NCBI GenBank assembly: GCA_020860715.1
Contig: JAJBTU010000038.1
Location: 1 to 64,000 of the forward strand
DNA: 64,000 bases
Reading direction: 5' to 3'
Origin: Clostridiales bacterium
GTDB lineage: Bacteria; Bacillota; Clostridia; Lachnospirales; Lachnospiraceae
Within the stretch, counting starts at the first letter, position 1, and each line of letters starts with the position of its first letter. Of the stretch, positions 43,673-60,855 are shown piece by piece. The translations under genes and the position numbers were made by a program. A model generated the notes under the pieces. That model was not told the origin of the DNA and did no database searches. It was given only the letters and a program-made list of their open reading frames with translations.

Positions 43673-43792
43673 TCGTGCTGTTTTCCTTTTATCCTTTTCA
43701 GAATCTCCATAATACTCCAGAATCCAGCTGTGCTGACGCACATCTGCCGCTGCTCGGGTAACGACACGCGCACTCCGTGCACCTGTCAGGTC

Positions 43793-43951
43793 GTTGCCGC
43801 TATTTAAAATCGCTTCGCGATAGCGGCAACTCGCAGCTTTTTGATTCTGTCGTTGACTTATCGGTTCAGCGTACGCAAGCTCTTCGCTACCGCTTCGGTC
43901 GGTGCTAAACGAGCGCCACTGGCGCTCAGCACCCGCTTCTTCCGATAAGTC
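43793..43951. repeat. Two adjacent modular palindromes before the transporter genes
   Basis: The first (43793-43830) has GTTGCCGCT/AGCGGCAAC arms around ATTTAAAATCGCTTCGCGAT; that 20-bp core recurs inverted at 45861-45880. The second (43855-43951) has GACTTATCGG/CCGATAAGTC arms enclosing GGTGCT-AAAC-GAGCGCC and its mirror. The remaining part of the 552-bp gap to 44224 is AT-rich promoter DNA. Confidence 0.85.
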
Positions 43952-44169
43952 ATATTATATATCCTTTTTCGCAGGAAAACAAGAAAGAGTAATTTTAAGT
44001 AACTAAATTAACTGAATTAGATTAATTTAACCTCAGACATAAAAAAATACAGGCAAACATGAACAAAAATCCGGATTGAAATTTGTAAAATACATATAAA
44101 ATGACGTAAAGAATAATAATGCATGATAAAAAGGCAAAAATGAATGATGTACAAAATAGAAGAAATTCC

Positions 44170-44209
44170 TATAATGAGGCTATGTTATCGAAACAGATTT
44201 CATAATAAT
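44170..44209 (+). promoter_or_regulatory. Possible promoter and operator of the mannan transporter
   Basis: TATAAT at 44170-44175 with a weak -35 (ATGTAC, 17 bp upstream). TTATCGAAACAGATTTCATAA, symmetric around GAAA/TTTC, lies just downstream and could be a regulator site. A poor -35 would fit dependence on the AraC activator. Confidence 0.4.
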
Positions 44210-44224
44210 AAGGAGGACAACACT

Positions 44225-45583
44225 ATGAAATTAAAGAAAGCACTTGCCGTTGTTATGGCGGTATCCATGGCAGCTTCTCTGTCCATGGTTGCATCTGCGG
44301 AAGAAGAGAGCAGCATTCCGGCATATGCAGACATCGTACTTGGCGAGGACTATACGGATCTGGAGGCTTCCATCAAGTTCATCCATCACAAGACCGACCG
44401 TGAGGAAGACGGTACGATGGCAGAGCTGATCGCAGCGTTCAATGAAGTATATCCGAACATCACCGTTACCACCGAGGGCGTTACGGATTACGCGGAGGAT
44501 TCCCTTCTTCGTCTGTCCACGGGCGACTGGGGCGACATCATGTTCATCCCGGCGATCGACGCGGACGAACTGCCGACTTATTTCTATTCTTACGGCACGA
44601 CGGAAGAGATGAGCGAACTGATCAATTTCGCGGACGCATATTCTTATGACGGCCAGAGTTATGGTATCCCGTACATGGGCAACGCACAGGGTATCGTTTA
44701 CAACAAGGCAGTCTTCGAGGCAGCCGGCATCACCGAGATTCCGACGACTCCGGATGAGTTTATCGCGGCTCTGCAGCTGATCGCGGACAACACTGACGCG
44801 ATTCCGCTTTACACGAACTACGCAGCAGGCTGGACGATGGGCGCATGGGATGCTTATGTTGGCATCGTATCAGACGGCGACGACACTTATATGAATCAGA
44901 AGTTCGCTCATGACTCGGATCCGTTCTCAGACCCGGGCGACGGCACAGGCGCTTACAATGTTTACAAGATTCTCTATGACGCGGTTGCAAACGGCCTCAT
45001 CGAGGACGACTACACCACGACTGACTGGGAAGGCTGCAAGAGCATGATCAACAACGGCGAGATCGGCTGCATGGTACTTGGCTCCTGGGCTTATATCCAG
45101 ATGGTAGAAGCCGGCGACAACGGCGACGACATCGGCTATATGCCGTTCCCGATCACGGTAGACGGTACCCAGTATGCGAGCGCAGGCGGAGATTACAACT
45201 ACGCGATCAACGTGAACAGTTCTGATACAAACATCACTGCTTCTCTGATCTTCGTGAAATGGATGACCGAGGAGTCCGGATGGTGCGAGCTGGAAGGCGG
45301 CTACCCGGTTGATAAGACCGGAGAGATGCCGGAGGTATTCTCTGCATTTGACGGCTGCGTACTGCTGACAGATGTTGCTGCACTGGAAGGCGAGGAGACG
45401 CTCCTTGACGATATCAACGCTGAGTCTGAGCTGTCCTTCAACGCTGGCGGCAACTCCAAGATTCAGAGAATCGTAGAGTCTGCGTTCACGGGCGCTGAGA
45501 CCTTCGACGAGATCATGGCAGACTGGACCGCGGCATGGAATGACGCGCAGGATTATCTCGGAATCGAGACGACCACATACTAA
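44225..45583 (+). CDS. Sugar ABC transporter substrate-binding protein
   Basis: A 452-residue extracellular solute-binding protein (family 1) with a signal peptide (KKALAVVMAVSMAASLSMVASA). It lacks a lipobox cysteine, unusual for a Gram-positive binding protein, so it may be released or retained otherwise. The mature part has the binding-protein pattern GTMAELIAAFNEVYPNITVT, YGIPYMGNAQGIVYNK and GSWAYIQM. With the two permeases and esterases it resembles the manno-oligosaccharide binding protein of Roseburia; the substrate is inferred. AAGGAGG precedes the ATG. Confidence 0.9.
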   Translation: MKLKKALAVVMAVSMAASLSMVASAEEESSIPAYADIVLGEDYTDLEASIKFIHHKTDREEDGTMAELIAAFNEVYPNITVTTEGVTDYAEDSLLRLSTGDWGDIMFIPAIDADELPTYFYSYGTTEEMSELINFADAYSYDGQSYGIPYMGNAQGIVYNKAVFEAAGITEIPTTPDEFIAALQLIADNTDAIPLYTNYAAGWTMGAWDAYVGIVSDGDDTYMNQKFAHDSDPFSDPGDGTGAYNVYKILYDAVANGLIEDDYTTTDWEGCKSMINNGEIGCMVLGSWAYIQMVEAGDNGDDIGYMPFPITVDGTQYASAGGDYNYAINVNSSDTNITASLIFVKWMTEESGWCELEGGYPVDKTGEMPEVFSAFDGCVLLTDVAALEGEETLLDDINAESELSFNAGGNSKIQRIVESAFTGAETFDEIMADWTAAWNDAQDYLGIETTTY

Positions 45584-45785
45584 GAGGAAAAGAGACTTGT
45601 TCGGATGATGGCTGCTGCATACAGGAGGTGCAGTTCATAACCGCCTGGTTTGCTCCGGCTTCGGACAGTTTCGATGAGAAAAGTGAGCCAGAGGGGAGTT
45701 TCTTCTCTGGCTCCTTTACTGATACGCAGGGCCGGGCAGCGCACTTTGGCAGTGGATGCCGTATCCGGCAGTATTTAGCAGGAAG
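45584..45785 (+). other. Spacer after the binding protein gene, with a hairpin
   Basis: The 410-bp gap between binding protein and permease holds this part and the repeat at 45786. GAGCCAGAG...CTCTGGCTC near 45683-45715 forms a hairpin followed by CTTTAC, possibly a partial terminator. No gene is seen. Confidence 0.45.
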
Positions 45786-45960
45786 GTAACTATTCAGGAC
45801 AGTACCTCGCACTTGCTGCGAGGTACGTATGAAAACCTGCAGCTTATGGGGAAAAGCCCCATCGCGAAGCGATTTTAAATGGGCTTTTCCCCTCGCCGGG
45901 GCGGCATCCCGCACAGAGTGCGGGATAAGCCTCGTAACTGTGAAGGTACTGAACAGTTAC
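45786..45960 (+). repeat. 175-bp composite palindromic repeat
   Basis: Outer arms GTAACT...AGTTAC and AGTACC...GGTACT enclose three hairpins. These are GTACCTCGCA/TGCGAGGTAC; GGGGAAAAGCCC/GGGCTTTTCCCC with the ATCGC-GAA-GCGAT core (45861-45880); and TCCCGCA/TGCGGGA in a block homologous, inverted, to 52966-53007 and 60788-60829. Confidence 0.9.
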
Positions 45961-45993
45961 GGATGGGCTGATGATTCGGAAAGGAGGATTTCT

Positions 45994-47043
45994 GTGGCTG
46001 GAACAGTTGCCGTAAAGAAAAAGAAGAAACGGACATTCAAGGAGTGGCTGCGAAGCAGAGACGGTCAGCAGGTGCTGGTGATGATCTCATTTATGACGAT
46101 TCCGCTTTTGCTCCTTTTTATATTTACCTACCTGCCGTTTGGCGAGATGGTGAATTTCAGTTTTTACAATATGAAATATATAGGTGAGCGGACCTGGGTC
46201 GGAATTAAGAACTATATCCGCGTGTTCCAGAGAGACGACTGCTTCGGCGCGCTGAAACTCAGCCTTTATTATATGGGCGGATCCATCGTGCAGCTGGTAC
46301 TTGCGCTCTATCTGGCAACGATACTGAGTTTTAAGGTAAAGGGCGGAAAGTTTTTTAAAGGATGTATGTTCTTCCCTTATCTGATCAATGGTATCGCAAT
46401 CGGTTTTATTTTCAAATTCTTCTACACCAGAGGCTACGTGTTTGATACCGTGCTTCAGTGGTGCGGATTTGACCTGGAGAACCTCCCATACTGGCTGCGT
46501 GACCAGAGGATCAATAACATCTCCCTGGTGGCAACCTCCGTGTGGCGTTACTTTGGACAGAACATGGTGCTGTTCATCGGCGCGATCATGTCCGTGGACA
46601 ATACGCTCTACGAGGCAGCGGAGCTGGATGGCGCGAATAAATTCCAGCAGTTCCGTTATGTGATCCTTCCAAGCATCAGCACGATCGTCACACTGAACGT
46701 GATTCTTTCCATCACAGGCTCCTTAAGTGCGTTTGAGCCGTCTTATGTTATCACAAGCGGTGCGAACGGCACGGCGACCTACTTCGTGGTGATGCATGAG
46801 ATCGCGCATACACAGCAGAAGGTTGGCCTGGCGAGCGCGATGGCGGTAGTTCTGCTGGTGATCATCCTGTTTGCGACTCTGCTGCAGAATCTGTTCTTTA
46901 AGTATGTGTTCCGAAGCGGTGAGGATGAAGATCCGAACGCTGCCAAAAAACGCGAAAAACAGGCGGCGCGTGCTGCAAAGCACAGAGCGAAGGCAATGGA
47001 AAGCGAAAGCAGCACATCTGCGCTGCCGGAGCAGAACAGGTAA
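45994..47043 (+). CDS. Sugar ABC transporter permease 1
   Basis: A 349-residue MalF-type permease. A lysine-rich start (VKKKKKRTFKEWLRS) precedes six membrane helices; the ATPase-contact EAA motif is EAAELDGANKFQQFRYVILP. The C-terminus is charged (KKREKQAARAAKHRAKA). The GTG at 45994 follows AAAGGAGG; an in-frame ATG further up lies inside the palindromic repeat and is rejected. No ATPase gene is nearby, as is usual for such transporters that share one. Confidence 0.92.
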   Translation: MAGTVAVKKKKKRTFKEWLRSRDGQQVLVMISFMTIPLLLLFIFTYLPFGEMVNFSFYNMKYIGERTWVGIKNYIRVFQRDDCFGALKLSLYYMGGSIVQLVLALYLATILSFKVKGGKFFKGCMFFPYLINGIAIGFIFKFFYTRGYVFDTVLQWCGFDLENLPYWLRDQRINNISLVATSVWRYFGQNMVLFIGAIMSVDNTLYEAAELDGANKFQQFRYVILPSISTIVTLNVILSITGSLSAFEPSYVITSGANGTATYFVVMHEIAHTQQKVGLASAMAVVLLVIILFATLLQNLFFKYVFRSGEDEDPNAAKKREKQAARAAKHRAKAMESESSTSALPEQNR

Positions 47044-47058
47044 AGGAGGCGACGGAAA

Positions 47059-47907
47059 ATGACTGCTGCAAAAAAAGCGGAAGGAGCTGTTTTGACCTTC
47101 CTGAAATATTTTTCACTGGTGTTTTTCTCATTTGTTGCGCTTCTGCCGGTTGTCTCCTGTGTGATCACCGCGTTTAAGACCGATACGGAATATGCGCAGA
47201 CAAATGTTATGACACCGCCGGAGAGCTGGCTGAATTTTGACAATTTTATCCAGGCGTTTCAGAAAGCGAATATGGGGCGTGCGTTTCTCAATTCCGTACT
47301 CATCGTGGCCTGCGTGCTGGTCGCGTCCGTTTTTATCGGCACGCAGCTGGCATATGTGCTGAACCGCTTCAAGTTCCCGTTCAACAATCTGATCCGGAAC
47401 CTGTTCCTGTTTGCGTCTCTGCTTCCCGGTGTGGCGATGCAGGTATCTCTTTATGAGATCATGTACAATCTGCATTTTATCAACAAACTGTATGGCTACA
47501 TTATCATGATGTGCGGCACGGACGTTATTTCAATCTACATCTACATACAGTTTTTCGAGAACATTGATATCTCGCTGGATGAGTCGGCAATTGTGGACGG
47601 AGCCTCGTTTTTCACGATTTTCTATAAGATCCACCTGCCGCTTTTAAAGCCCGCGATCGTGACGGCCTGCATCTTAAAGGGCGTGGGCACCTACAACGAA
47701 TACTATTCGGCGAACCTCTATCTGCAGGATAAGACGAAGCTGGGAACGATGGCGACCTCACTCTACACGTTCGTGGGACCGCTGGGAAGCCAGTACAACC
47801 TGATCTGCGCGGGCGTGATCATTTCGCTTCTGCCGGCCCTGATCCTGTTTATCTTCTGCCAGGATCAGATCTACAGCGGCCTGACCGCCGGATCGGTCAA
47901 GGGCTGA
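47059..47907 (+). CDS. Sugar ABC transporter permease 2
   Basis: A 282-residue MalG-type permease with six membrane helices and the EAA-type loop DESAIVDGASFFTIFYKIHLP. AGGAGGCG precedes the ATG and it starts 15 bp after permease 1. It completes the membrane channel for the sugar-binding protein at 44225. Confidence 0.93.
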   Translation: MTAAKKAEGAVLTFLKYFSLVFFSFVALLPVVSCVITAFKTDTEYAQTNVMTPPESWLNFDNFIQAFQKANMGRAFLNSVLIVACVLVASVFIGTQLAYVLNRFKFPFNNLIRNLFLFASLLPGVAMQVSLYEIMYNLHFINKLYGYIIMMCGTDVISIYIYIQFFENIDISLDESAIVDGASFFTIFYKIHLPLLKPAIVTACILKGVGTYNEYYSANLYLQDKTKLGTMATSLYTFVGPLGSQYNLICAGVIISLLPALILFIFCQDQIYSGLTAGSVKG

Positions 47908-47975
47908 TGAAGCTGGTGCCGGAAAAATCTGAAGCCGGAGCAATCGAAAACGTATGAAAGAGAAGGATAACCATC

Positions 47976-49094
47976 ATGTATATTTCACCGGATCATGAGC
48001 TGCTGCAGTACAGCGGCAGGATTGATTTTGAGGAGCCGAAAGCTCCGGTGTTTGTCTTTCCGTGCAGCAGTGTCGCCCTGCGTTTTACCGTGCAGGGCGG
48101 CGCTGACCGTGCGGGAGCCGATTCGTGTGTGAGCGGCGCTGACCGTGCGGAAGCTGATTCCGCTGCGGGCGCTGCCGTGTTTGTGACCGTGACGAATAAA
48201 AATGCGTATTGCGACAATTACCTTGGCTATATTCTCGACGGGGAGCAGGGAAAGTTCCGGATTGAAAATACGGAACGGCAGACCTGTACGGTCGCAGAAG
48301 ATCTTGCTCCGGGTGAGCACAGCCTGCTGTTGTTCAAACGAATGGATTCCTGCCATACGTTTACCCTGCACGGTCTGGAGATCACAGGATTAAAGGAACT
48401 GCTGCCGTGTCCGCCAAAGCCGGAACGGAGGATCGAGGTCTATGGCGACAGCGTCTCCGCCGGAGAGGTATCCGAGGCGGTAGACTATGTGGGGAAACCG
48501 GATCCCGAGTGGCACAATGGCGAACTGTCAAACAGCTGGTATTCTTATTCATGGATCACAGCGCGGAAACTGAATGCCGAGATACACGATATCGCGCAGG
48601 GCGGTGTGGCGCTCATTGACGGGATCGGATATTACAATGACGCGGAACCTGTCGGGATGGAAAGCGTATACGACAAACTTCGTTACAGCCCGGCGCTGGG
48701 GGTGATAAAACCCTGGGATTTTTCTCTCTGGACGCCGCAGGCTGTAGTTATTGCGGTCGGGCAGAACGACAGCCATCCCTGTGATTTTATGCGGGAGAAT
48801 TATGAAGGCGCACAGGCTGCTCACTGGAGAGAGTGCTATGGCGCGTTTGTGCGCCGCATAAGAGGACTGTATCCTGATGCGGAAGTGATCCTCGCGACAA
48901 CGATTCTGGAACATGACAAAAGCTGGGATTGCGCGATTGACGCAGTGTGCACGGCGCTGAACGATCCGAAGGTACATCATTTCTTATATAAGAGGAACGG
49001 AGCCGGGACGCCGGGACACATCCGGATACCGGAAGCGGAAGAGATGGCGGAGGAACTGGCGGGGTATATTGATTCGCTGGGGATTCCGTGGTAA
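47976..49094 (+). CDS. CE2-like SGNH acetylesterase
   Basis: A 372-residue cytoplasmic esterase with an N-terminal beta-sandwich (1-145) and an SGNH hydrolase domain. The nucleophile is Ser159 in VYGDSVSAGE; IAVGQNDSHP supplies the block III Asn, and GHIRIPEAEEMA the likely catalytic His. The layout matches CE2 enzymes such as the mannan esterase of Roseburia. Residues 41-66 contain a tandem GADRAGADS/GADRAEADS low-complexity insert in the beta-sandwich. It lies after the permeases, so it would deacetylate imported manno-oligosaccharides. Confidence 0.82.
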   Translation: MYISPDHELLQYSGRIDFEEPKAPVFVFPCSSVALRFTVQGGADRAGADSCVSGADRAEADSAAGAAVFVTVTNKNAYCDNYLGYILDGEQGKFRIENTERQTCTVAEDLAPGEHSLLLFKRMDSCHTFTLHGLEITGLKELLPCPPKPERRIEVYGDSVSAGEVSEAVDYVGKPDPEWHNGELSNSWYSYSWITARKLNAEIHDIAQGGVALIDGIGYYNDAEPVGMESVYDKLRYSPALGVIKPWDFSLWTPQAVVIAVGQNDSHPCDFMRENYEGAQAAHWRECYGAFVRRIRGLYPDAEVILATTILEHDKSWDCAIDAVCTALNDPKVHHFLYKRNGAGTPGHIRIPEAEEMAEELAGYIDSLGIPW

Positions 49095-49109
49095 TATGTT
49101 TGAAAAATA

Positions 49110-49204
49110 GTAATTATTAAGAACAGCAGGCCACAGGTCTACGCTTCGTCTTGGTCGGCGCTCAGCGCTTGTCTTTTCTTTTCGATGCTGTTCTGAACTG
49201 TTAC
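49110..49204 (+). repeat. 95-bp composite palindromic repeat
   Basis: AGAACAGCA (49120-49128) and TGCTGTTCT (49186-49194) are arms extended outward by GTAATTATTA against GAACTGTTAC. It encloses GGCGCT-CA-GCGC-type and ACGCTTCGTC hairpins. It lies between the two esterase genes. Confidence 0.75.
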
Positions 49205-49241
49205 AAAAATGACTGACAAAAAGCTGACAGGGAGAAGAATT

Positions 49242-50465
49242 ATGTACGACATCAACAGAGAAGCAGGAATCGTAAACCGCGGAAATGAGGAGCGCCTTAA
49301 GGCGGTGATGCGGCGCGCGGCCGCAGGAGAGCAGATGACGATCGGTTTTATCGGGGGCTCCATTACACATGGTTCCCTTTCGAGTACGCCGCAGACCTGT
49401 TATGCGTATCTCGTGTACTCCTGGTGGAAAGAAGCGTTTCCGAAGGCGGATTTCACTTATGTGAATGCCGGTATCGGAGCGACAGATTCGCAATATGGTG
49501 CGGCAAGAGTGGAGACGCATCTGTTACAGTATAAGCCGGATGTCGTATTCATTGAGTTTTCGGTCAATGATGAGAGTACGGAGCATTTTCTTGAGACCTA
49601 TGAGGGACTGGTCAGACGAGTTCTTTTCAGCGAGTGTGCCCCTGCCGTGATATTGATTCACAATGTCTGCTATGACAACGGTGCGAGCGCGCAGCTGCAG
49701 CACGCAAAGGTAGGGCGACATTACAGCTTGCCGAGTGTCAGCATGCAGAGCTCGATCTATCCGGAACTGCTCGCAGGGCGCATTCCGAACCGCGAGATCA
49801 CGCCGGACGATCTGCACCCGAACGATGCCGGACATGAGCTGGTAGCTTCGGTGATTACGTATTATCTGGAAACAGTGCGGATGGAGGCGCTTGAAAAGGT
49901 AGAAGAGGGAAGCCCGATGAACGTAGAAGTACCCTTGTGTCAGAATTCAGTCGCCGAAAGTATCATTCATGGAGAAAACGCTGCTTGTTTGAACGGCGCT
50001 ATGGAGCCAGTTCCTCTGACAGCGAACACGTATGAGCGCAGCGTTCGTTACAGCAACAGGAACTATACACTGGAAGAAGTGGAAGGCTTCACGGCGGATC
50101 TGCGTCCGCAGAGTGATATTACGGATAATTTTAAAAATGGCTGGGAATCTTCTTTACAGGGAGCGCATATGACATTCGAACTGGAGGGAACCGGTGTGGC
50201 CGTACAATTTCGGCGCTCGGTAAGACCATCTGCGGCGGATGGTACTTCTCGTTTTGCGCCGGTCGCGGAGATCATCGTGGATGGAGATCCTGCGACCCGG
50301 AAGATTCTGGACGCAAACTTTGATGAGACCTGGGGAGATAAGCTGGAGCTTCTGACAGTTACCGAGCATATGCCTAAAGGAATTCACCGGGTGGAAGTGC
50401 GGCTGGTGGAAGCACAGGATACGGTGGTGCCGTTTTACCTGAATGCGATTATTATGGCGGATTAA
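49242..50465 (+). CDS. CE17-like SGNH acetylesterase with C-terminal sugar-binding domain
   Basis: A 407-residue protein. The SGNH domain (about 1-215) has the nucleophile in GFIGGSITHG (Ser40), the FSVNDEST block and the DDLHPNDAGH catalytic dyad. A C-terminal beta-sandwich (about 220-407) resembles a CBM35-type module. The order SGNH plus CBM35 is that of CE17 mannan acetylesterases, which remove 3-O and 6-O acetyl groups while the CE2 partner removes 2-O acetyls. AGGGAG fits the ATG at 49242. A perfect hairpin follows the gene. Confidence 0.82.
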   Translation: MYDINREAGIVNRGNEERLKAVMRRAAAGEQMTIGFIGGSITHGSLSSTPQTCYAYLVYSWWKEAFPKADFTYVNAGIGATDSQYGAARVETHLLQYKPDVVFIEFSVNDESTEHFLETYEGLVRRVLFSECAPAVILIHNVCYDNGASAQLQHAKVGRHYSLPSVSMQSSIYPELLAGRIPNREITPDDLHPNDAGHELVASVITYYLETVRMEALEKVEEGSPMNVEVPLCQNSVAESIIHGENAACLNGAMEPVPLTANTYERSVRYSNRNYTLEEVEGFTADLRPQSDITDNFKNGWESSLQGAHMTFELEGTGVAVQFRRSVRPSAADGTSRFAPVAEIIVDGDPATRKILDANFDETWGDKLELLTVTEHMPKGIHRVEVRLVEAQDTVVPFYLNAIIMAD

Positions 50466-50499
50466 GGAAAGCTGCCGATATAGAACGGAAATGAAAGGC

Positions 50500-50527
50500 G
50501 GGCGTTCTTCCTTTTGGAAGAACGCCC
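50500..50527. terminator. Bidirectional terminator hairpin
   Basis: GGGCGTTCTTCC-TTTT-GGAAGAACGCCC, a perfect 12-bp stem between convergent genes. The flanking T-tract is short. Confidence 0.75.
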
Positions 50528-50561
50528 ACTTTGTGAAAGTATCTATGCAAAGCGTTTGCGC

Positions 50562-51401
50562 TTAGATACCGTATTCTTTTAGTAATTTCCGTTGGTAAGA
50601 TTCATCTGCTATCGATTTTTTTAAATCATCAAATCGATTATTGTTCAGAAGATTTTTATTTAACTGGTTCACCTTGTTCATCCCGTTTTCTTCCTGCTTA
50701 CGCATCTTATCAGCAAAAAGTTCTTCTAATGCTTCACATAACATATCATCATCTCCTCTCGATAATTTATTGGCCCGAATAAGGGTATTCATATATGTCT
50801 GATAATCCGGTTCGTTTTCGTGCCGCCTGTAAGCGGCAGCCACTCGTTGAAGAGAAACTGTGGGCAGAGCGTTTGTAAGAGACTGCAGCCATAGATATTC
50901 TTCTCCTGTCAGTTGTGAAGTGATAATAAGCTGCACGGGTATCATTTCTGTATTGATATGATACAGCCCCGGAAGCATTTTTTCAAGAGGATTTTGGGAA
51001 CTTTTATGTGCAGGATGCAAATTTTTTCTTTTTAAATGATTCCATAGCTTTTGCGGAAAAGAATGTGAAATCAATGTCAGGGAAGTGTCTTCAAGAATTT
51101 TATCTGATTGAAAATGTGTTGGAAAACTGTAAATGTATGATAGTGATTTATAATAGTTCTGGATACCAAGTGAATCGCCGGGGCCTTTGTATTCGATGAG
51201 ATTGTATTTTTGAAAAATCCGGCCGATGGGAGAAGCGATGCTGCGGCTGTTTTCTGCTTTGGTGATGAGCAGATCACCCCGCCTTTGGCCTGTATTTAAT
51301 ACAATTTCAGACTGATAGCTCAGGATGTCCTGATAATCAGCCAGTTCGATTTTCAGGGCCGATACGATTGCGGAATGCCAGTTGATACGGCAATCGGTCA
51401 A
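50562..51401 (-). CDS. PD-(D/E)XK nuclease-like protein, Rpn/YhgA-related
   Basis: A 279-residue protein with an N-terminal restriction-like fold: HSAIVSALKIELAD, then RRGDLLIT (metal Asp) and NLIEYKGPGDSLGIQNYYK (the E-x-K pair). This pattern is common in Lachnospiraceae proteins of the Rpn/transposase-derived group. The C-terminal part is helical with AMRKQ-like charged repeats and KLLKEYGI at the end. The GC content is lower than that of its neighbours, suggesting later acquisition. The target is unknown. Confidence 0.65.
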   Translation of the reverse strand: MTDCRINWHSAIVSALKIELADYQDILSYQSEIVLNTGQRRGDLLITKAENSRSIASPIGRIFQKYNLIEYKGPGDSLGIQNYYKSLSYIYSFPTHFQSDKILEDTSLTLISHSFPQKLWNHLKRKNLHPAHKSSQNPLEKMLPGLYHINTEMIPVQLIITSQLTGEEYLWLQSLTNALPTVSLQRVAAAYRRHENEPDYQTYMNTLIRANKLSRGDDDMLCEALEELFADKMRKQEENGMNKVNQLNKNLLNNNRFDDLKKSIADESYQRKLLKEYGI

Positions 51402-51753
51402 ACAGTAAAATCCTCCTTTCGGTTTTTAAAACGTTTTAGGTGATGCTATGTATTCCGGATTGATCTTTGGTATCTGCCAGAAAACGCATGGAATGGCTGA
51501 GAATTTCTGTAAATCAAAACAATGGGTACTAAATACATAACATAAATATAGAATAAAGTCAACATAAAATAAATGAAAAGCATAAATGATATATTAATAT
51601 TTCAGAAACACAATTATAGCTTCTCAAATATTCCTCAAAAAAAGACAAAAGTCCTTGCCATACGGACATAAAAGGTATAAAATAGGGAACAGATTTGGTC
51701 TTTGCCGACAAGGCAGATCAATGATCATAATAAAAAAGAGGAGGAAACGAACT
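51402..51753 (+). promoter_or_regulatory. AT-rich intergenic region with the liv promoter
   Basis: This 352-bp gap is AT-rich. TTGCCA (51655-51660) with TAAAAT (51678-51683) at 17 bp forms a promoter about 70 bp before livJ. The rest holds no gene that I can support. Confidence 0.6.
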
Positions 51754-52911: not shown

Positions 52912-52929
52912 ATCCTTGCGGATTTATCG

Positions 52930-53039
52930 CTGCCTCCGGCGGATGCACACATGCTTCGCATGGTTTATCCCGTCCGCAGGACGAGGATGCCATCCGGCGA
53001 GGACGCACATACGGACTGCGCAGTCCTGATTGGAGGCAG
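52930..53039 (+). repeat. 110-bp composite palindromic repeat between livJ and livH
   Basis: CTGCCTCC (52930-52937) and GGAGGCAG (53032-53039) enclose ATGC-TTC-GCAT, CGTCC-GCA-GGACG and GGACTGCGCAGTCC hairpins. Block 52966-53007 is 36/42 identical to 60788-60829, with a compensatory change in the CGTCC/GGACG stem. Confidence 0.9.
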
Positions 53040-53144
53040 AAATAGTATTTACAAGATCGTCCACTATATATAACGTTTGAGCTTATTAACATCGCAGGGG
53101 GCTGCACGAGCTGCAGCCTCCTTATATGTAAAGGGGAATTTTCC

Positions 53145-54029
53145 ATGGATTTTATCAGCAAAAACCTGCCTTACCTGCTGGCCGGTATCTCGGTCGGCGG
53201 ACAGTATGCCCTGATCGCCATCGGTTATACGATGGTGTACGGCATCTTAAGGCTGATCAACTTTGCCCACGGCGATATCTTTATGGTGGCCGCGCTGGTG
53301 TTTGTGTACGCGTCGGCGTCTCTGCCGCTGTACATATCGATCCCATTGACGATCGTGGCGACGGTGATCCTGGGCTTTGCGGTGGAGCGCGTGGCGTATA
53401 AGCCGCTGCGGAACGCGCCGCGTATGTCAGTCATGATCTCGGCGATCGGCGTTTCCTATCTGCTGCAGAATCTGGCACTGTATATTACCGGCGGCCTGGC
53501 ACAGGTGGTGCCGTCGATTCCGGTGATTTCCAACACAGTGAAGATCGGAAGCGCGACGACCAAGGTCGTGACGCTTGTGACGCCGGTTTTGACCATTGTG
53601 CTGGTATTTGTGCTGATGCAGCTGATCAACCACACCAAGATCGGTATGGCGATGCGCGCGGTGTCGGATGATTTTGAGACGAGCCGCCTGATGGGCATCA
53701 AGATCAACTCCGTTATCAGCACGACCTTCATGATCGGGTCGTTTCTGGCGGCGATCGGCGCGCTCCTGTATTTCACGAATTATCCGTCCGTGGTGCCGAC
53801 CTCCGGCGCGATGCCGGGTCTGAAAGCGTTCGTGGCTGCCGTGTTCGGCGGCATCGGTTCGATTCCGGGTGCGGTGATCGGAGCGTTTATCATCGGTATC
53901 TGCGAAAACATTATCAAAGGACTTGGCTGGACGACGTTCTCGGATGCGTTTACGTTTGCCCTGCTGATCGTTGTCCTTCTTGTAAAACCGACCGGTCTGT
54001 TTGGCGAAAAAGCCACAGATAAGGTCTGA
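53145..54029 (+). CDS. livH: Branched-chain amino acid permease LivH
   Basis: A 294-residue inner-membrane permease with about eight helices. Family marks are GGQYALIAIGYTMVYGILRL, NFAHGDIFMVAALV and the loop AMRAVSDDFETSRLMGI. AAAGGGG precedes the ATG. The gap to livJ (233 bp) contains the composite repeat. Confidence 0.95.
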   Translation: MDFISKNLPYLLAGISVGGQYALIAIGYTMVYGILRLINFAHGDIFMVAALVFVYASASLPLYISIPLTIVATVILGFAVERVAYKPLRNAPRMSVMISAIGVSYLLQNLALYITGGLAQVVPSIPVISNTVKIGSATTKVVTLVTPVLTIVLVFVLMQLINHTKIGMAMRAVSDDFETSRLMGIKINSVISTTFMIGSFLAAIGALLYFTNYPSVVPTSGAMPGLKAFVAAVFGGIGSIPGAVIGAFIIGICENIIKGLGWTTFSDAFTFALLIVVLLVKPTGLFGEKATDKV

Positions 54030-54044
54030 GAGGAGGGCGACAAA

Positions 54045-55124
54045 ATGAGTAAGAAAACAAATGCAATTATTTCCGCTGTGCTTCTTGCGGCGCTGTGTGT
54101 GTTTGTCGTGATTCTGGAGCAGATCCTTCCGTCGACGCACATCGCACTGACCGTGCTGAAAAAGAGCTGCATCTATGCACTGGTGGCGGTTTCCATGAAC
54201 CTGCTGAACGGCTTTACCGGTCTGTTCTCCTTAGGACAGGCGGGCTTTATGCTGATCGGCGCGTATACATACGGCGTTCTGACTATCCCGGTGGCGGACC
54301 GCGCTTCCGTTTATCAGTATTTTGACGGCGGCCTGATCCAATTCGCGGTACCGGTCTTTGTGGGCCTGATCGCGGCTGGCGCGGTGGCAGCGCTTTTTGC
54401 GTGGCTGATCGGACTGCCCGTGCTGCGCTTAAAGAGCGATTATCTGGCAATCGCGACCCTCGGCTTTGCCGAGATCATCCGCGCGATCTTCCAGTGGGAT
54501 AAGCTCGGCGTGATCACGAACGGCTCGAACCTGCTGCGCAAGTTCCCGACCTTTAAATCCGTAATGTTTCCGCTGATCGTCTGCGGTGTCTGCATTGCGA
54601 TCATTGTGCTGATCATCAATTCCTCCTATGGGCGGGCTTTCCGCGCCATCCGGGACGATGAGATCGCGGCGGAGGCGATGGGCATCAATCTGGCGAAGCA
54701 CAAGAGGATGTCGTTCTGCATCTCCTCGTTCTTTGCGGGAGTGGGCGGCGGCCTGCTGGCGATGTACCAGACCTCCATTCAGGCGTCGACGTTTAAGTCG
54801 GCCATGACCTATGAAATCCTTCTGATCGTGGTCATCGGAGGTCTTGGTTCTGTGACCGGAAGCTGTCTGGCTTCGTTCCTCTATATCGCGTGTTCCGAGT
54901 GGTGGCTGCGCTTCCTGGATTCGGAGATGTATATCGGAAGATTCAAGGTGCCGCTTCTTCGAAGCGGGTTCCGCAAGGTTGTTTTTGCAGTGATCGTGAT
55001 GGTGGTCGTGCTGTTTTATCGCAAGGGCATCATGGGCGATAAGGAATTCTCGCCTGCCCGCGTGTACGACTGGTGGCAGAAGAGAAAGGCGAAAAAGAAC
55101 GCCGGGAAGGAGGCTGCGAAATGA
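54045..55124 (+). CDS. livM: Branched-chain amino acid permease LivM
   Basis: A 359-residue permease, partner of LivH, with about nine helices. GFTGLFSLGQAGFMLIGAYT and RAIRDDEIAAEAMGINLAKH are family hallmarks. GAGGAGG precedes the ATG. Its stop overlaps the livG start. Confidence 0.95.
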   Translation: MSKKTNAIISAVLLAALCVFVVILEQILPSTHIALTVLKKSCIYALVAVSMNLLNGFTGLFSLGQAGFMLIGAYTYGVLTIPVADRASVYQYFDGGLIQFAVPVFVGLIAAGAVAALFAWLIGLPVLRLKSDYLAIATLGFAEIIRAIFQWDKLGVITNGSNLLRKFPTFKSVMFPLIVCGVCIAIIVLIINSSYGRAFRAIRDDEIAAEAMGINLAKHKRMSFCISSFFAGVGGGLLAMYQTSIQASTFKSAMTYEILLIVVIGGLGSVTGSCLASFLYIACSEWWLRFLDSEMYIGRFKVPLLRSGFRKVVFAVIVMVVVLFYRKGIMGDKEFSPARVYDWWQKRKAKKNAGKEAAK

Positions 55125-55963
55125 GTACCAACATCCTTCGGGCGGAAGACATTACCATGCAGTTTGGCGGCGTTGTAGCGGTTGACAACCTCTCTTTAGA
55201 GGTGAACGAGCATGAGATCGTCGCCCTCATCGGGCCGAACGGCGCCGGGAAGACGACCGCTTTCAACTGCATTACCGGCGTATATGAGCCGACCAACGGC
55301 CGTGTGGAATTCTGCGGGAAAGAGATCGTGGAAAGCTACCCGCACGGCAAAATGAAAAAGACCTACAAAGGAGAGAACGCCGGAAAATATTCAAAACGGC
55401 TGGTGCAGACCCCGGATAAGATTACTCAGGCCGGGATTGCGCGTACCTTCCAGAATATCCGTCTGTTCAGCTCCATGACCGTATTTGAGAACGTACTGAT
55501 CGCGAAGCATATGCGTGCGAAGCAGAATCTGTTTACCGCGACCTTCCGCCTGAATCATGCGGAAGAACAGCGGATGAGAAAAGAAACAATGGAGCTTCTG
55601 GAAATGCAGAATCTGGCACATTTGAAGGATGAGATCGCCGGCTCGCTTCCGTACGGCATTCAGCGCCGTCTGGAGATCGCGCGTGCCCTGGCGACTGAGC
55701 CGAAGCTGTTGCTGCTCGACGAGCCCGCGGCGGGCATGAACCCGCAGGAAACGCAGGAACTGGCGGACTTTATCAGCCAGATTCGCGATCAGTATGATAT
55801 GACGATCTTCATGATCGAACACCATATGGATCTTGTCATGCAGATTTCCGACCGCGTGTATGTGCTGGATTTCGGAAAACTGATCACCGAAGGAACGCCG
55901 GAAGAGGTACAGAACGATCCGCGCGTTATCGAGGCATATCTGGGGGTGAGTGAGGATGCTTAA
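55121..55963 (+). CDS. livG: Branched-chain amino acid ATPase LivG
   Basis: A 280-residue ABC ATPase: Walker A GPNGAGKTT, signature LPYGIQRRLEIARAL, Walker B LLLLDEPAAGMNP, and a LivG-type insertion around residues 60-90. The start at 55121 after GGAAGGAGG overlaps the livM stop by four bases. Confidence 0.95.
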   Translation: MSTNILRAEDITMQFGGVVAVDNLSLEVNEHEIVALIGPNGAGKTTAFNCITGVYEPTNGRVEFCGKEIVESYPHGKMKKTYKGENAGKYSKRLVQTPDKITQAGIARTFQNIRLFSSMTVFENVLIAKHMRAKQNLFTATFRLNHAEEQRMRKETMELLEMQNLAHLKDEIAGSLPYGIQRRLEIARALATEPKLLLLDEPAAGMNPQETQELADFISQIRDQYDMTIFMIEHHMDLVMQISDRVYVLDFGKLITEGTPEEVQNDPRVIEAYLGVSEDA

Positions 55964-56654
55964 AGTAGAGAATCTGAAAGTGAATTACGGCGGAATCGAG
56001 GCCGTGAAGGGAATCAGCTTTGAGGTACCCGAGAACAGCATCGTCACGCTGATCGGAGCGAACGGCGCGGGCAAATCCACAACGCTGCGTTCCATCGTAT
56101 CGCTGGAAAAACCTGCGTCCGGCACGATTACCTTCAACGGTGAGGATATCACCGGGCAGGAAACGAACGACATCGTATCCAAAGGCATTACGCTGGTGCC
56201 GGAGGGCCGCCGGATTTTCCCGAGTCTTACGGTACTGGAAAACCTGAAGGTCGGCGCCTATATGCGAAAGGACAGTCTGAATGACGACCTGGAATGGGTC
56301 TACAGTCTGTTCCCGCGTCTGAAAGAGCGCAGTTGGCAGGCCGGTGGTACGCTCTCCGGCGGCGAGCAGCAGATGCTGGCCGTGGCGCGCGCGCTGATGA
56401 GCCGCCCGAAGCTGCTGATGATGGATGAGCCGTCCCTTGGCCTTGCGCCTCTGATCGTGCAGGAGATCTTCAATATCATCCGCCAGATCCATGAGGAAGG
56501 CGTGACGATCCTGCTGATCGAGCAGAACGCGAATATGGCGCTGCGCACCGCGGACGTCGGCTACGTGCTGGAGACCGGCCGCATCACCATGACCGGCAGC
56601 GGAGCCGAACTGCTCGCGGATGAGAAAGTCCGCGCCGCGTATCTTGGAAAGTGA
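55956..56654 (+). CDS. livF: Branched-chain amino acid ATPase LivF
   Basis: A 232-residue ABC ATPase: Walker A GANGAGKST, LVPEGRRIFPSLTV, signature LSGGEQQMLAVARAL, Walker B LLMMDEPSLGLAP. It overlaps the end of livG by 8 bp and completes the transporter. Confidence 0.95.
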   Translation: MLKVENLKVNYGGIEAVKGISFEVPENSIVTLIGANGAGKSTTLRSIVSLEKPASGTITFNGEDITGQETNDIVSKGITLVPEGRRIFPSLTVLENLKVGAYMRKDSLNDDLEWVYSLFPRLKERSWQAGGTLSGGEQQMLAVARALMSRPKLLMMDEPSLGLAPLIVQEIFNIIRQIHEEGVTILLIEQNANMALRTADVGYVLETGRITMTGSGAELLADEKVRAAYLGK

Positions 56655-56711
56655 TGAATGGGACTGAACTCTCAACTTTCGGCGGCTCCATAAAAAGGGA
56701 GGAAAGAGTAT

Positions 56712-57683
56712 ATGGATCGAGTAAAGACACCCTGCAATAAAAACGCGACGCCGGAGGCCGTGAAATTGATGGAGTATCTGGATGAAGTCGCCGGAAAGAA
56801 AGTGCTTCTCGGACAGCATACGCAGACGAGAGCACCGAAAGAACTTCAATATATAAAGGAAGTGACGGGAAAGCAGCCGGCCATCTGCGGCTTTGAGATG
56901 CTGGCGTATTCCGGCAATATTCAGTGGGATACCTGTGACGAGGCGTGTTTAAAAGAGCTTTATGAGAATCTGGGGACGCTTGAAAACGCTCTGGAATGGG
57001 GGCGGCACGGAGGCATTGTGACAATCACCTGGCACTGGTATTCCCCGGTCGGAGGCAGGGACAAAAGTTTTTATGCGGAAAAAACGGATTTTGACGGGGA
57101 AAAGGCGCTGACGCCCGGTACAGAGGAACACCGTGCAATGGTGCGGGATCTGGATCTGATGGCCGTTCATCTGAAACGGTTCATGGATGAGAAGATTCCG
57201 GTACTCTGGAGACCGTTCCATGAATCCGAAGGCACCTGGTTCTGGTGGGGGATGCAGGGACCGGATCTGGCGAAACGGCTCTATCAGTTCATGTATCGCT
57301 ATTTTACAGAGCAAAAGGGCCTGAATCATCTGATCTGGGTGTGGAATTCGCCGCTTCCGGAAGGGTATCCGGGAGATGATATGGTGGATATTATCTCGAG
57401 AGATATTTATTCGCCGGCGCATGTCCATGACGCGCAGGCGGAGGGATACCGGGAACTGATCTCCATTACGCCGGCCTGCAGGCTCTGCGCATTGGCGGAG
57501 GTCGGCACACAGCCGGATGTGGATGCGATTATAAAGGAAGAAATTCCGTGGTGTTGGTATATGACCTGGTCGAATGAGTTCGGTTCAACAGAGGAATTTA
57601 CGGATAAGAAGCAGCTTTATGCCAATTATCACAGCCCGTACGCGGTCGCTTACGAGGATCTGCCCTGGGTGAAAACCAAATAG
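56712..57683 (+). CDS. Intracellular GH26 endo-beta-mannanase
   Basis: A 323-residue GH26 enzyme. The acid/base is Glu171 in WRPFHESEGTWFWWG and the nucleophile Glu263 in ALAEVGTQPD. Further family residues are GGIVTITWHWYSP and IISRDIYSP. There is no signal peptide or binding module, so it should act inside the cell on imported manno-oligosaccharides. GGGAGG precedes the ATG. It lies 57 bp after livF and so probably shares that operon, which is odd for a sugar enzyme. Confidence 0.9.
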   Translation: MDRVKTPCNKNATPEAVKLMEYLDEVAGKKVLLGQHTQTRAPKELQYIKEVTGKQPAICGFEMLAYSGNIQWDTCDEACLKELYENLGTLENALEWGRHGGIVTITWHWYSPVGGRDKSFYAEKTDFDGEKALTPGTEEHRAMVRDLDLMAVHLKRFMDEKIPVLWRPFHESEGTWFWWGMQGPDLAKRLYQFMYRYFTEQKGLNHLIWVWNSPLPEGYPGDDMVDIISRDIYSPAHVHDAQAEGYRELISITPACRLCALAEVGTQPDVDAIIKEEIPWCWYMTWSNEFGSTEEFTDKKQLYANYHSPYAVAYEDLPWVKTK

Positions 57684-57842
57684 GGGATTCGTCTTCGGAA
57701 CTGTTGGCTGGAGCAGCGGTCTGATCACTGCAGGAGAGGACAGGCGGAAGCATTTTGACACGGTATGCAGAACGGAAATAGAAAAGGAAACTGTCGGAAC
57801 GGTACAATAAAGAGATGGAATGAGGAAGAAGAACGGGCCTAT

Positions 57843-58700
57843 ATGTGGATTGCGGATCAGTGGAAGGACTACGAAGTAATTGATACATCAAAAGGGGAAA
57901 AACTGGAGCGCTGGGGAGACTATCTCCTCGTGCGCCCGGATCCGCAGGTCATCTGGGATACCCCGCGCCGTCACCGCGGCTGGAAGCGGCCGAACGGACA
58001 CTATCACCGCAGCAGCAGGGGCGGCGGCGACTGGGAATTTTTTGATCTGCCTGAACAGTGGACCATCGGATACCGCGATCTGACATTCCGGCTGAAGCCG
58101 TTCAGCTTTAAGCATACCGGTCTTTTCCCGGAGCAGGCGGTGAACTGGGACTGGTTTTCCGCGAAGATACGGGAAGCAGACCGACCGGTCAAAGTATTGA
58201 ACCTTTTTGCCTATACCGGCGGCGCGACGCTTGCCGCGGCAGCCGCGGGAGCGCGGGTGACGCATGTGGACGCGTCGAAGGGAATGGTCGGCTGGGCGAA
58301 AGAGAACGCTGCGGCATCCGGACTTTCTGATGCGCCGGTCCGCTGGCTTGTCGACGACTGTATGAAGTTTGTGGAGCGCGAGATCCGGCGCGGCAACCAT
58401 TATGATGGGATTATCATGGACCCGCCTTCTTACGGCCGCGGGCCAAAGGGGGAGATCTGGAAGATAGAAGATTCCATTCATCCGTTTATCCGCGAATGCG
58501 CAAAGCTGCTTTCGGATCAGCCGCTGTTCTTTCTGGTAAATTCTTATACGACAGGGCTTGCCCCGGCAGTGCTGACTTATCTGCTCGCGACAGAACTCAA
58601 ATCAAAAGGCGGGCATGTGGAATCGCAGGAGATCGGCCTTCCCGTCACGGAGAGCGGCCTGATCCTGCCGTGCGGCGCGTCGGGAAGGTGGGAAGTGTGA
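57843..58700 (+). CDS. Class I SAM-dependent rRNA methyltransferase, RlmI/RlmK-like
   Basis: A 285-residue methyltransferase. The AdoMet motif I is VLNLFAYTGGATLAAAAAGA, followed by VTHVDASKGMVGWAKENA, and the catalytic-type loop is GIIMDPPSYGRGPKGEIW. The N-terminal part (WGDYLLVRPDPQVIWDTP) is PUA-like but reduced. It probably methylates a base in 23S rRNA. The ATG at 57843 is used; the open frame runs further up without a good ribosome site. It ends 8 bp from the convergent deacetylase gene. Confidence 0.85.
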   Translation: MWIADQWKDYEVIDTSKGEKLERWGDYLLVRPDPQVIWDTPRRHRGWKRPNGHYHRSSRGGGDWEFFDLPEQWTIGYRDLTFRLKPFSFKHTGLFPEQAVNWDWFSAKIREADRPVKVLNLFAYTGGATLAAAAAGARVTHVDASKGMVGWAKENAAASGLSDAPVRWLVDDCMKFVEREIRRGNHYDGIIMDPPSYGRGPKGEIWKIEDSIHPFIRECAKLLSDQPLFFLVNSYTTGLAPAVLTYLLATELKSKGGHVESQEIGLPVTESGLILPCGASGRWEV

Positions 58701-58707
58701 CATAAGT

Positions 58708-59754
58708 TTATTTACGGAAACTGCTGTAGACGGAACCGTTCTTCATCCCGCCGCGGCATTCTGCAAGTTCACTGACGGTCACAAGCTGGTAACCCCGTTT
58801 CACCAGCGTGGCTATAATCGTTTTTGACGCGGCTGCAGTGGAACTGTAAAGGTCGTGCATCAGAACGATATCGCCGTCTTTAACATGATTCAGTACGGCT
58901 TTGATTGTCTTGGAGGAACTGCGCGTTGCCCAGTCCCGTGTATCGATTGACCAGTAGATGATCGGCATTTTTACCGTGCTCTTTACTGTTTTGTTGTAGC
59001 TGCCTCCTGGCGGCCTCATGACGACCGGGGAGACGCCGGTGATTCTTTTGACGGCAGAATTTGTCTTTGAGATCTGACTCTGGATCTTTGCCCTGGAAAG
59101 CCTCGTCAGGGTGAGATGGTCATAAGTATGGTTGCCGATCTCACAGCCCATGCTGTAGGCTCTTTTAACCGTAGACTTATAGGAAGAAACCCGGTTCCCG
59201 ACCACAAAGAAGGTCGCGACACTGTTGTATTTCTTCAGCGTGTTCAGAATGGTTGCCGTGTTCTTCGACGGACCGTCGTCGTAAGTGAGCGCGACCATTT
59301 TTTTGTTTTTGTTGATCGAGCGGTAGAGAACGCCGTTTTTGTCAAAATAGCGGATGTAACTGCCGATCGTTTGTTTTCCGCTCACACGTGCGCCTGTCTT
59401 TGGGCTGAAGTAATATTTCTTGCCGTTTGAGGCGGTATACCAGCCGGTCAGGCGCTTTCCGTTTGAACGGAAGTAATAATATTTCCCGTTGATTTTTTTC
59501 AGACCGGTCTGCATCTTGCCGTTCGAACTAAAGTAGTAGTAAGAATTTCCGATCTTAGTCATACCGGTGGCGGGCGTGCCGTCCGACGTGTAATAGTACT
59601 TTGCTCCGCTTTCCGAGGTATACCAGGTGTTGGTCAGCTGTTCCGTTTCGGAAGAGGCACTGCTGTCAGCGGCCTGCCCGTGGATGACGGAGGGCGCTGC
59701 AAAGCACAGCGCCAGCAGCAGGAGGAGCATTGCAAAACAGGTTTTCTTTTTCAT
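58708..59754 (-). CDS. Secreted polysaccharide deacetylase with cell-wall-binding repeats
   Basis: A 348-residue exported protein. After the signal peptide (CFAMLLLLLALCFAAPSVIHG) come four or five choline-binding-type repeats (TGMTKIGNSYYYFSSNGKMQ, TGLKKINGKYYYFRSNGKRL). A NodB deacetylase domain follows, with TYDDGPS, HTYDH, RPPGGSYN and HDLYS motifs. It should remove acetyl groups from peptidoglycan or a wall polysaccharide. GAAGGGAG precedes the ATG at 59754. Confidence 0.92.
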   Translation of the reverse strand: MKKKTCFAMLLLLLALCFAAPSVIHGQAADSSASSETEQLTNTWYTSESGAKYYYTSDGTPATGMTKIGNSYYYFSSNGKMQTGLKKINGKYYYFRSNGKRLTGWYTASNGKKYYFSPKTGARVSGKQTIGSYIRYFDKNGVLYRSINKNKKMVALTYDDGPSKNTATILNTLKKYNSVATFFVVGNRVSSYKSTVKRAYSMGCEIGNHTYDHLTLTRLSRAKIQSQISKTNSAVKRITGVSPVVMRPPGGSYNKTVKSTVKMPIIYWSIDTRDWATRSSSKTIKAVLNHVKDGDIVLMHDLYSSTAAASKTIIATLVKRGYQLVTVSELAECRGGMKNGSVYSSFRK

Positions 59755-59913
59755 ACATTTTCTCCCTTCGTTATTGCTGAATCCAGTATATACCATTTTT
59801 AAGGAAACGGGAAGCAAAGAAAACAAAAGAATTTCTTATGATGCGGCATGCGGATTGTATGAAAAAAAATACATTTTTTTTGAGAAAAAATTTTGTTTTC
59901 CGGAAGAAAAACC

Positions 59914-59942
59914 TTGCAATACGCAGGAAATTCCTTTATAAT
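59914..59942 (+). promoter_or_regulatory. Promoter of the S10 ribosomal operon
   Basis: TTGCAA (59914-59919), 17 bp, TATAAT (59937-59942). The leader to rpsJ is about 310 nt. Confidence 0.85.
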
Positions 59943-59979
59943 TAACGCTGTTGTGGCCTTGATAGCGTAGAAGCGTGAG

Positions 59980-60220
59980 GTTGCTGCGGTGTGCGCCGCA
60001 GGTTTTTCCGTGGAGCGAATGTCAGGTTATGAAAGCTGGCGACAAGTCACTGTACAGAATTTTAATGGCTCCGATAAGCATATCGGACACCGTGTGGGCG
60101 CATGACACACACGGGTGAGTGTACAGTCACCGCTTGTCGTACTCAATGTCGGGTATCTGCAGAGCAGATGCACGATGCGGGACACGCCTTGCGCAGCAGC
60201 GCAATTCCAATTGGCGTGTC
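59980..60220 (+). promoter_or_regulatory. Structured leader of the S10 operon
   Basis: The leader can form a multi-branched RNA. GCGACAAG (60039-60046) pairs with CTTGTCG (60133-60139), and ACTGTACA (60049-60056) with TGTACAGT (60120-60127). They enclose CCGATA/TATCGG and CCGTGTG/CACACACGG hairpins. A separate hairpin GACACGCC/GGCGTGTC with TTGCGC/GCGCAA lies at 60181-60220, just before the ribosome site. This looks like an autoregulatory ribosomal-protein leader; the regulating protein (L4 in other bacteria) is inferred. Confidence 0.7.
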
Positions 60221-60256
60221 TGTCGAAAAAGTGCGAATAAGGAGGCGACTTTTTTT

Positions 60257-60574
60257 ATGGCAACTCAGGTAATGAGAATCACACTGAAAGCGTATGACCA
60301 CCAGCTGGTGGATGCATCCGCGAAAAAGATCATCGACACTGTAAAAAAGAATGGAGCACAGGTGAGCGGACCGGTGCCGCTTCCGACGAAGAAAGAGGTA
60401 GTTACGATTCTTCGTGCGGTACACAAGTACAAGGACTCCAGAGAGCAGTTCGAGCAGAGGACACACAAGAGACTCATCGATATCATCGCACCGACCCAGA
60501 AGACAGTCGACGCACTGTCAAGACTGGAGATGCCGGCGGGCGTGTACATTGATATCAAGATGAAGCAGAAGTAA
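60257..60574 (+). CDS. rpsJ: Ribosomal protein S10
   Basis: The 105-residue S10 protein of the small subunit (also NusE, an antitermination partner). The family sequence is clear: [53 protein letters not shown] precedes the ATG; the upstream open frame lies in the leader. It is first in the S10 operon and separated from rplC by a 203-bp palindromic element. Confidence 0.99.
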
Positions 60575-60652
60575 TTCTGCACGCAGTATTGAGCAAATCC
60601 TATTCAGGTGGAAATAAACCGCTCCTATGACTAGGATGATCCTGGGGATGCT

Positions 60653-60855
60653 GTTCAGAGCATCGGCCGCAGACCCGTTCGCTTCGCGAACTATTCGCTG
60701 CTTCGCAGCTGCTGTCTGTGGCGATCATGGGCGTCCCGCCCATTGCAAAATGAATTCCCGCCCCTTAGCGGATAAATCCGCACGGAATATCCCGCCCGCA
60801 GGGCGAGGATGCCACCCGGCGAGGGTGCGTTCTTCATTTTGTCAATGCTCTGAAC
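60653..60855 (+). repeat. 203-bp composite palindromic repeat between rpsJ and rplC
   Basis: GTTCAGAGCAT (60653-60663) and ATGCTCTGAAC (60845-60855) are perfect 11-bp outer arms. Inside are GCCGCAGAC/GTCTGTGGC around GTTCGC-TTC-GCGAAC and GCTGC-TTC-GCAGC; GGGCG-TCC-CGCCC; CAAAATGAA/TTCATTTTG; and the block 60788-60829 shared with 52966-53007. The 324-bp gap carries no gene. Confidence 0.9.

Follow-up and report, generated by a model that had tools for sequence, protein, structure and literature searches.

GA-cis, a probably mobile palindromic unit, lies between genes and in frame within genes of a Lachnospiraceae bacterium

A 64,000-nucleotide stretch of DNA (the window; positions 1 to 64,000 of the forward strand of contig JAJBTU010000038.1, GenBank assembly GCA_020860715.1) from a Clostridiales bacterium of the Lachnospiraceae was analysed together with the whole genome to which it belongs (2,671,780 bases in 39 contigs, designated G000) and with related genomes (G001 and following) and loci fetched from them (L numbers). 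An initial annotation had described at least nine sites in the window carrying palindromic modules of a single modular family. The modules were found where they had been placed, and genome-wide pattern and covariance-model searches together with pairing tests upheld both their dispersal and their covariation. They do not form one family. The genome contains several small, non-autonomous hairpin-forming repeat families, and the supposed single family resolved into an element resembling miniature inverted-repeat transposable elements (MITEs; module 1), the Rfam family GA-cis (module 2), and two or more further hairpin repeats, with occasional nesting of one in another. The genome has very probably been invaded by such repeats, and GA-cis would be a mobile palindromic unit of approximately 78 bp, found in intergenic DNA and in frame in genes, that resembles the Rickettsia palindromic elements (RPE). 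The evidence for GA-cis consists of dispersed copies, exact empty sites, reading frames that pass through the unit, tandem copies and copies sharing a gene, complementary arms, and a patchy spread within one genus. The in-frame copies inside protein-coding genes, which are the main fact, were absent from the initial annotation.

Module 2 had been described as belonging to no named family. When the window was scanned with cmscan and the genome was searched with the covariance model, the module 2 sites were found to be GA-cis (RF02987), which is filed in Rfam as a small RNA (sRNA). Two matches were found in the window, at 39839-39922 and 43753-43834, both on the minus strand. The second either precedes an AraC-type open reading frame (ORF) or lies at its 5' end, and it includes the 20-bp core at 43802-43821, which is identical and inverted at 45861-45880 (minus strand) as originally reported; there it is part of the internal hairpin of a module 1 element and is common to the GA-cis hairpin. 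In the genome there were 29 matches, 27 of them above the gathering score of 34.7 bits, and matches extended over all 88 model positions. No GA-cis was found in 14 control genomes by the same covariance-model search. Among 41 genomes, nine were positive, all within the genus (9/25 in the genus and 0/16 outside it), with at least 3 to at least 65 matches per positive genome; these counts are lower bounds, since stricter filters were applied and no more than 80 candidates per genome were scored (26 matches here compared to 29). Some species of the genus have dozens of matches and others none. Adjacent copies were spaced 78 bases apart in 7 of 10 pairs read from the listed matches, and likewise in the two tandem copies of the window. 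GA-cis is a dispersed palindromic insertion of about 78 bp (26 codons), built of two hairpins: in the 5' one, freely variable complementary arms surround a small inner hairpin, whereas the 3' one, TGCCGCC...GAGGGGGC, is fixed.

The cleanest empty site is that of leuS. Compared to the solved T. thermophilus leucyl-tRNA synthetase 2v0c, the GA-cis peptide is an exact insertion of 26 residues in LeuS. In the DNA, the 78 bp present here were missing from all 11 of the other aligned leuS loci (12 of 24 fetched loci were aligned), seven of which belong to the same genus and have flank identities of 82-95%. The sole near-full-identity LeuS match in this genome bears the insert, the other listed matches being stretches of 28-31% identity, which suggests that a working LeuS containing the insert is produced. 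A total of 12 pairs of filled and empty sites were aligned and four were clean: the leuS pair; the reciprocal pairs from this genome and G013, two species whose arylsulfotransferase ORFs each hold 78 bp of GA-cis at a position that is empty in the other; and a GA-cis copy of 79 bp in G001 located outside called coding sequence.

Within the window, GA-cis interrupts an ORF of 405 aa at 39583-40800 (plus strand) that is assigned to the radical-SAM type on its CxxxCxxC motif, a mark of that type, all its NCBIfam matches being below the curated cut-offs. Its closest named relatives are from Lachnospiraceae and Clostridiales metagenome-assembled genomes. Two tandem in-frame copies 78 bp apart occupy approximately aa 65-110 (39785-39922, minus strand), and only the second (39839-39922) reaches the Rfam threshold. 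Homologues of the same genus (G003, G005, G009 and G015) read '...PCISG-xx-GSGAVFFSGC...' at this site, and the window ORF has 46 residues in the place of xx, corresponding to one full 26-residue GA-cis unit and one partial unit. In 100 locus records, drawn from two homologue sets of 20 and 80 with same-genome duplicates kept, the site held two residues in 69 and inserts of 12-54 residues in 9; the remaining 22, which departed from the motif, were left unscored. A GA-cis-type peptide was present in six of the nine insert-bearing records (L098, L099, L101, L181, L183 and L184, of which L181 and L184 repeat L099 and L101) and other inserts in three (L102, L103 and L185). Five of the nine are from the same genus, L183 and L185 not being placed to genus. 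A GA-cis-type insert was also seen in the alignment of L100, one of the 22 unscored records. The same ORF has a second, different in-frame insert at approximately aa 253-285 (window 40339-40437) made of two GDExR-AEETE-like units. At this second site other sequences are present in L099, L100 and L101, and the site is empty in L102, L103, L106, L108, L110 and L112; no further copies of the insert were found in the fetched loci.

A census was made of 88 distinct GA-cis copies, delimited by their Rfam coordinates, comprising 28 of the 29 matches of this genome and 60 of approximately 238 in relatives, mostly the better-scoring ones. One locus of this genome (L043) and 6 of 68 rows from relatives (L184 and five matches that were partial or fused) were left out; this left 62 rows from relatives, of which 2 were duplicates. 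Coding flanks were called by a codon model trained on the long ORFs of the window. Same-strand coding flanks were found on both sides of 45 of the 88 copies, and 37 of these 45 are read through in frame without a stop. With respect to the Rfam strand, the in-frame copies were 22 antisense and 15 sense, and in this genome 13 antisense and 1 sense; a general antisense orientation of in-gene copies therefore holds for this genome (13/14) but was rejected overall (22/37). The 14 in-frame copies of this genome lie in 12 ORFs, and one of them (L042) is below the Rfam cut-off. The radical-SAM copy is additional to these 14, its short upstream side having been overlooked by the codon score. Searches of Pfam, NCBIfam and PDB sequences placed the hosts in the following families: IleS, LeuS, HflX, NAD synthase, ArgJ (where the PDB alignment leaves the insert uncovered), LacZ, an arylsulfotransferase and a PF09818 ATPase with two copies each, an ABC-transporter ATPase, an Orn/Lys/Arg decarboxylase, a tRNA-editing domain and AAA/DUF4143.

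Some of the host genes carry additional sequence. Compared to solved homologues, further in-frame inserts of about 58 and 43 aa were found in ileS (L017:505-678) and hflX (L019:1044-1172), respectively. The one in ileS folds into nested GA-cis-like hairpins, so that more families may exist. In the NAD synthase gene (L024:1422-1679), near-identical GAATCGTCCTGCGGACG blocks flank GA-cis, as if it were nested in another in-frame repeat.

The arms of module 2 had been described as unrelated between copies and yet self-complementary, and this was confirmed by an alignment-free test. The 27 copies above the cut-off have 25 different 9-nt 3' arms, and at least 8 of 9 positions formed Watson-Crick pairs with the copy's own 5' arm in 25 of 27 copies compared to 52 of 702 cross-copy pairings. 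RNAalifold on a MAFFT alignment missed the outer stem, and on a hand-drawn structure that helix was only 59.5% paired because the arms misalign. Two copies within one ORF have identical arms, indicating that the arms travel with the unit. On the other hand, the orthologous pair L066 (G001) and L139 (G008) differs by two paired arm changes, and therefore arms also change in place with their complementarity kept. Selection on the folded form, as proposed in the initial annotation, is consistent with these paired changes at one orthologous pair, but the same pattern is predicted by template switching (quasi-palindrome correction), a mutational mechanism in which one arm is copied onto the other. 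That such correction, and not selection on the fold, produced the compensatory changes is quite plausible, if somewhat short of probable: arms are complementary even inside ORFs with no evident RNA role, and the two changes at the orthologous site occurred in place as pairs. Against this, a single orthologous pair was compared, and a hairpin required for transposition would give a like pattern. Covariation by itself is no proof of a functional RNA.

Alternatively, GA-cis could be a structured non-coding or cis-acting RNA, with the genic copies being chance overlaps or mis-called ORFs. The sRNA entry in Rfam, the conserved 3' hairpin with covarying arms, and the 43 of 88 copies not clearly in genes are in its favor. 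This explanation is disfavoured and we regard it as highly unlikely, since conserved enzymes are interrupted for which relatives have exact empty sites, and since the genus includes species with dozens of matches alongside species without any. Moreover, the mixed orientation of the in-frame copies (22 antisense and 15 sense) means that no single RNA strand is used throughout. Some intergenic copies may nevertheless have an RNA role. For a mobile GA-cis unit, a plausible sequence of events is that a trans-acting enzyme copies the unit in its hairpin form, that the unit's length divisible by three and its few stop codons would let insertions survive in genes, and that the resulting peptide, so far seen in predicted proteins, is probably translated and tolerated rather than useful.

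Several observations weigh against the reading of GA-cis as a mobile unit found also within genes. Eight of the 45 copies in coding flanks are broken, six by frame shifts and two by stops, and the 43 copies that are not clearly genic comprise 32 flanked by coding sequence on one side, 9 on neither side and 2 at contig edges. A frame-keeping match length was found in 37 of 45 copies in genes compared to 27 of 43 outside, and a difference in length class between the two groups was rejected as not significant (Fisher p = 0.056). Six of the 12 filled-empty pairs were ragged, with gaps of 45-73 bases, two failed, and no constant target duplication was seen at GA-cis sites in the 12 pairs. In addition, no mobiliser was identified: Y1_Tnp (PF01797) had 0 matches in this genome, a negative limited by the draft state of this genome, from which the gene could be missing, and by the Y1 matches of the five GA-cis-rich relatives G001, G008, G010, G013 and G014. 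Among the genomes of the genus in the set searched, Y1_Tnp was present in 5 of the 8 with GA-cis and 4 of the 8 without, and the GA-cis 3' hairpin was found in the flanks of 0 of 12 fetched Y1 loci. A RAYT/Y1 transposase as the mobiliser of GA-cis thus found no support.

Module 1 is a MITE-like element separate from GA-cis. An exact search of the genome for CTGAACAGTTAC gave 14 copies compared to 0 for the reversed control; when R was allowed at one position together with one mismatch, there were 82 matches compared to 16 in the control. Twelve of the occurrences of the one-mismatch form, on contigs C11, C12, C14, C23, C24, C28, C31 and C32, read GTAACTGTTCCG, perhaps a separate short repeat. 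The fetched loci of this genome and the window contained 12 two-ended elements of 31-276 bp with the ends GTAACTRTTCAG...CTGAACAGTTAC. Matching between their flanks peaked at 8 bp, with a mean of 0.58 compared to 0.28 in cross pairings, and an 8-bp target duplication matching at 7 of 8 positions or better was present in three of the 12 elements (8/8, 8/8 and 7/8; control 0). Two more match at 6 of 7 positions at 7 bp, and the remainder, including the copy at 45786, have no clear duplication. That copy is a type-A element (45786-45960, plus strand, ends GTAACTATTCAG...CTGAACAGTTAC), of which three other copies of 133-134 bp are present in the genome. A type-B element of 95 bp (GTAATTATTAAGAACAGCA...TGCTGTTCTGAACTGTTAC; 49110-49204, plus strand) lies directly before the ORF at 49209, and short solo module 1 hairpins of 31 and 27 bp were found in the sequence at 23056-23086 and at 40841-40867, 3' of the radical-SAM ORF (both plus strand). 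A DDE-type transposase would be the expected mobiliser of module 1. As parents, IS1595 (0 of 16 genomes) and IS66 (7 of 16 genomes, 0 here, with 12 IS66 loci lacking a facing pair of module 1 ends) found no support; the search for a parent transposase covered these two families only.

Module 3 is represented by 46-bp blocks at 52957-53002 and 60779-60824 that are 87% identical, the copies named at the outset being at 52966-53007 and at 60788-60829, just before the ORF at 60899 (both plus strand; found in the sequence and by pattern search). Its stem alternates between CGTCC/GGACG and CGCCC/GGGCG, as had been claimed. The pattern had 7 matches in the genome, was positive in 7 of 25 genomes and had 0 matches in the control; the lone match in G003, with two mismatches, looks spurious. 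Comparison of the type-A copies located a module-3-like hairpin nested in the window element at 45893-45932 (minus strand) and missing from the three copies of 133-134 bp. This inverted copy, an insertion of 40-41 bp inside the MITE-like element that is one base shorter before the second conserved block, was missed by the module 3 search pattern.

A further module, not named in the initial annotation, was found by pattern search at 43897-43933 (plus strand). Module 4 (GGTCGGTGCTAAACG nnn GCCACTGGC nnn CAGCACC) is a hairpin with covarying stems and is enclosed by a larger palindrome, TGACTTATCGG...CCGATAAGTCA, at 43854-43952. It had 16 matches in the genome, occurred in 19 of 41 genomes and had 0 matches in the control. 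In 14 distinct sequences, 98.9% of cells were paired and 5 of 13 pairs had changed on both sides. Among 500 shuffles the covariation score was reached by 0, the changed-pair count by 11 and further pair types by 429, a test that leans towards the fold because the search pattern fixed most stem letters. Among 34 listed module 4 copies, five (L043, L087, L162, L164 and L165) were judged by eye to lie inside a GA-cis hairpin, and only L043 of four scanned module-4-bearing units had an Rfam GA-cis match. One module 4 copy (L296:1443, in G014) lies near a Y1_Tnp fragment.

Modules 3 and 4 are additional hairpin repeats able to land inside the other elements. The nesting of module 3 in the MITE-like element, of module 4 in GA-cis hairpins and, twice, in one 276-bp element, as well as the 20-bp core common to GA-cis and the MITE-like hairpin, could also be taken to mean that modules 1-4 belong together in a single composite mobile element. 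This is disfavoured and we give it very little credence: each module is also found alone elsewhere, their spreads differ (module 4 in 19/41, GA-cis in 9/41 and module 3 in 7/25 genomes), and 8-bp duplications were found for the MITE-like element only.

Of the nine sites, that at 33687-33702 (plus strand) is the weakest, with nothing beyond the 16-bp palindrome GTAACTGTTCAGTTAC. The window also contains a 13-bp tandem array (AAACAAAAACATA) at 19341-19457 and 9/45-bp tandem repeats within an ORF at 19969-20143. Further Rfam matches are a TPP riboswitch (21176-21280), a cspA thermoregulator (34256-34649) and an S10-Clostridia leader (59960-60045).

Elements of this kind are already known. Passages of PMC10969869, PMC2996958 and PMC3733652 describe in-frame palindromic elements in Rickettsia, Wolbachia and M. 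jannaschii, and PMC3733652 mentions repetitive extragenic palindromes (REPs) inside ORFs of several species. As far as these descriptions go, RPE and the Wolbachia and Methanocaldococcus jannaschii palindromes are like GA-cis in being short palindromic repeats in frame in unrelated housekeeping genes; GA-cis is indeed a dispersed palindromic repeat found in frame in unrelated genes whose homologues lack it. It differs in occurring in another phylum, in its free complementary arms and in its tandem 78-bp units, some with nested repeats. REPs and the GTAG- and CGTC-tagged repeats are likewise small dispersed palindromes, some of them inside ORFs according to passages of PMC3733652, whereas GA-cis comprises two hairpins in 78 bp, an alignment of 27 copies contains no constant GTAG or CGTC tag, and no Y1 transposase was found in this genome. 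PARCEL, as portrayed in parts of PMC2996958, is palindromic DNA that encodes 25-residue repeats, arrayed in tandem within functionally unassigned ORFs, many of them membrane-targeted; both are coding palindromes by description, but GA-cis occurs as one or two units in housekeeping enzymes. Module 1 resembles bacterial MITEs such as RUP, NEMIS and ERIC in being short, bounded by inverted repeats and accompanied by target duplications in part of its copies, and differs in its GTAACTRTTCAG ends, in having no parent transposase among the families searched and in the other hairpins nested inside it. No report of such palindromes in Lachnospiraceae was found in the titles and abstract beginnings among the matches listed from the open-licence PMC literature, and neither 'Clostridi' nor 'Firmicutes' occurs in PMC3733652. 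The name GA-cis is present in one paper of that literature, on Rfam 15. The Lachnospiraceae lineage, the reinterpretation of the Rfam family and the nesting appear to be new.

These findings bring GA-cis, an 'RNA' in Rfam, closer to the protein-coding mobile palindromes: the covariance model is the same, but what is filed as an sRNA behaves here like a mobile, often protein-coding palindrome. Since its insertions are polymorphic between species and have exact empty alleles, the absorption of 26-residue inserts by enzymes is directly testable. A bolder proposal, which we consider unlikely, is that this genus has a hairpin-based transposition in which an enzyme copies self-complementary units, preferably of 78 bp (26 codons), into hairpins and genes, seeding essential enzymes with in-frame peptides while active arm-to-arm correction keeps the DNA palindromic. 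If true, hairpin transposition with arm correction would be a standing source of new protein loops.

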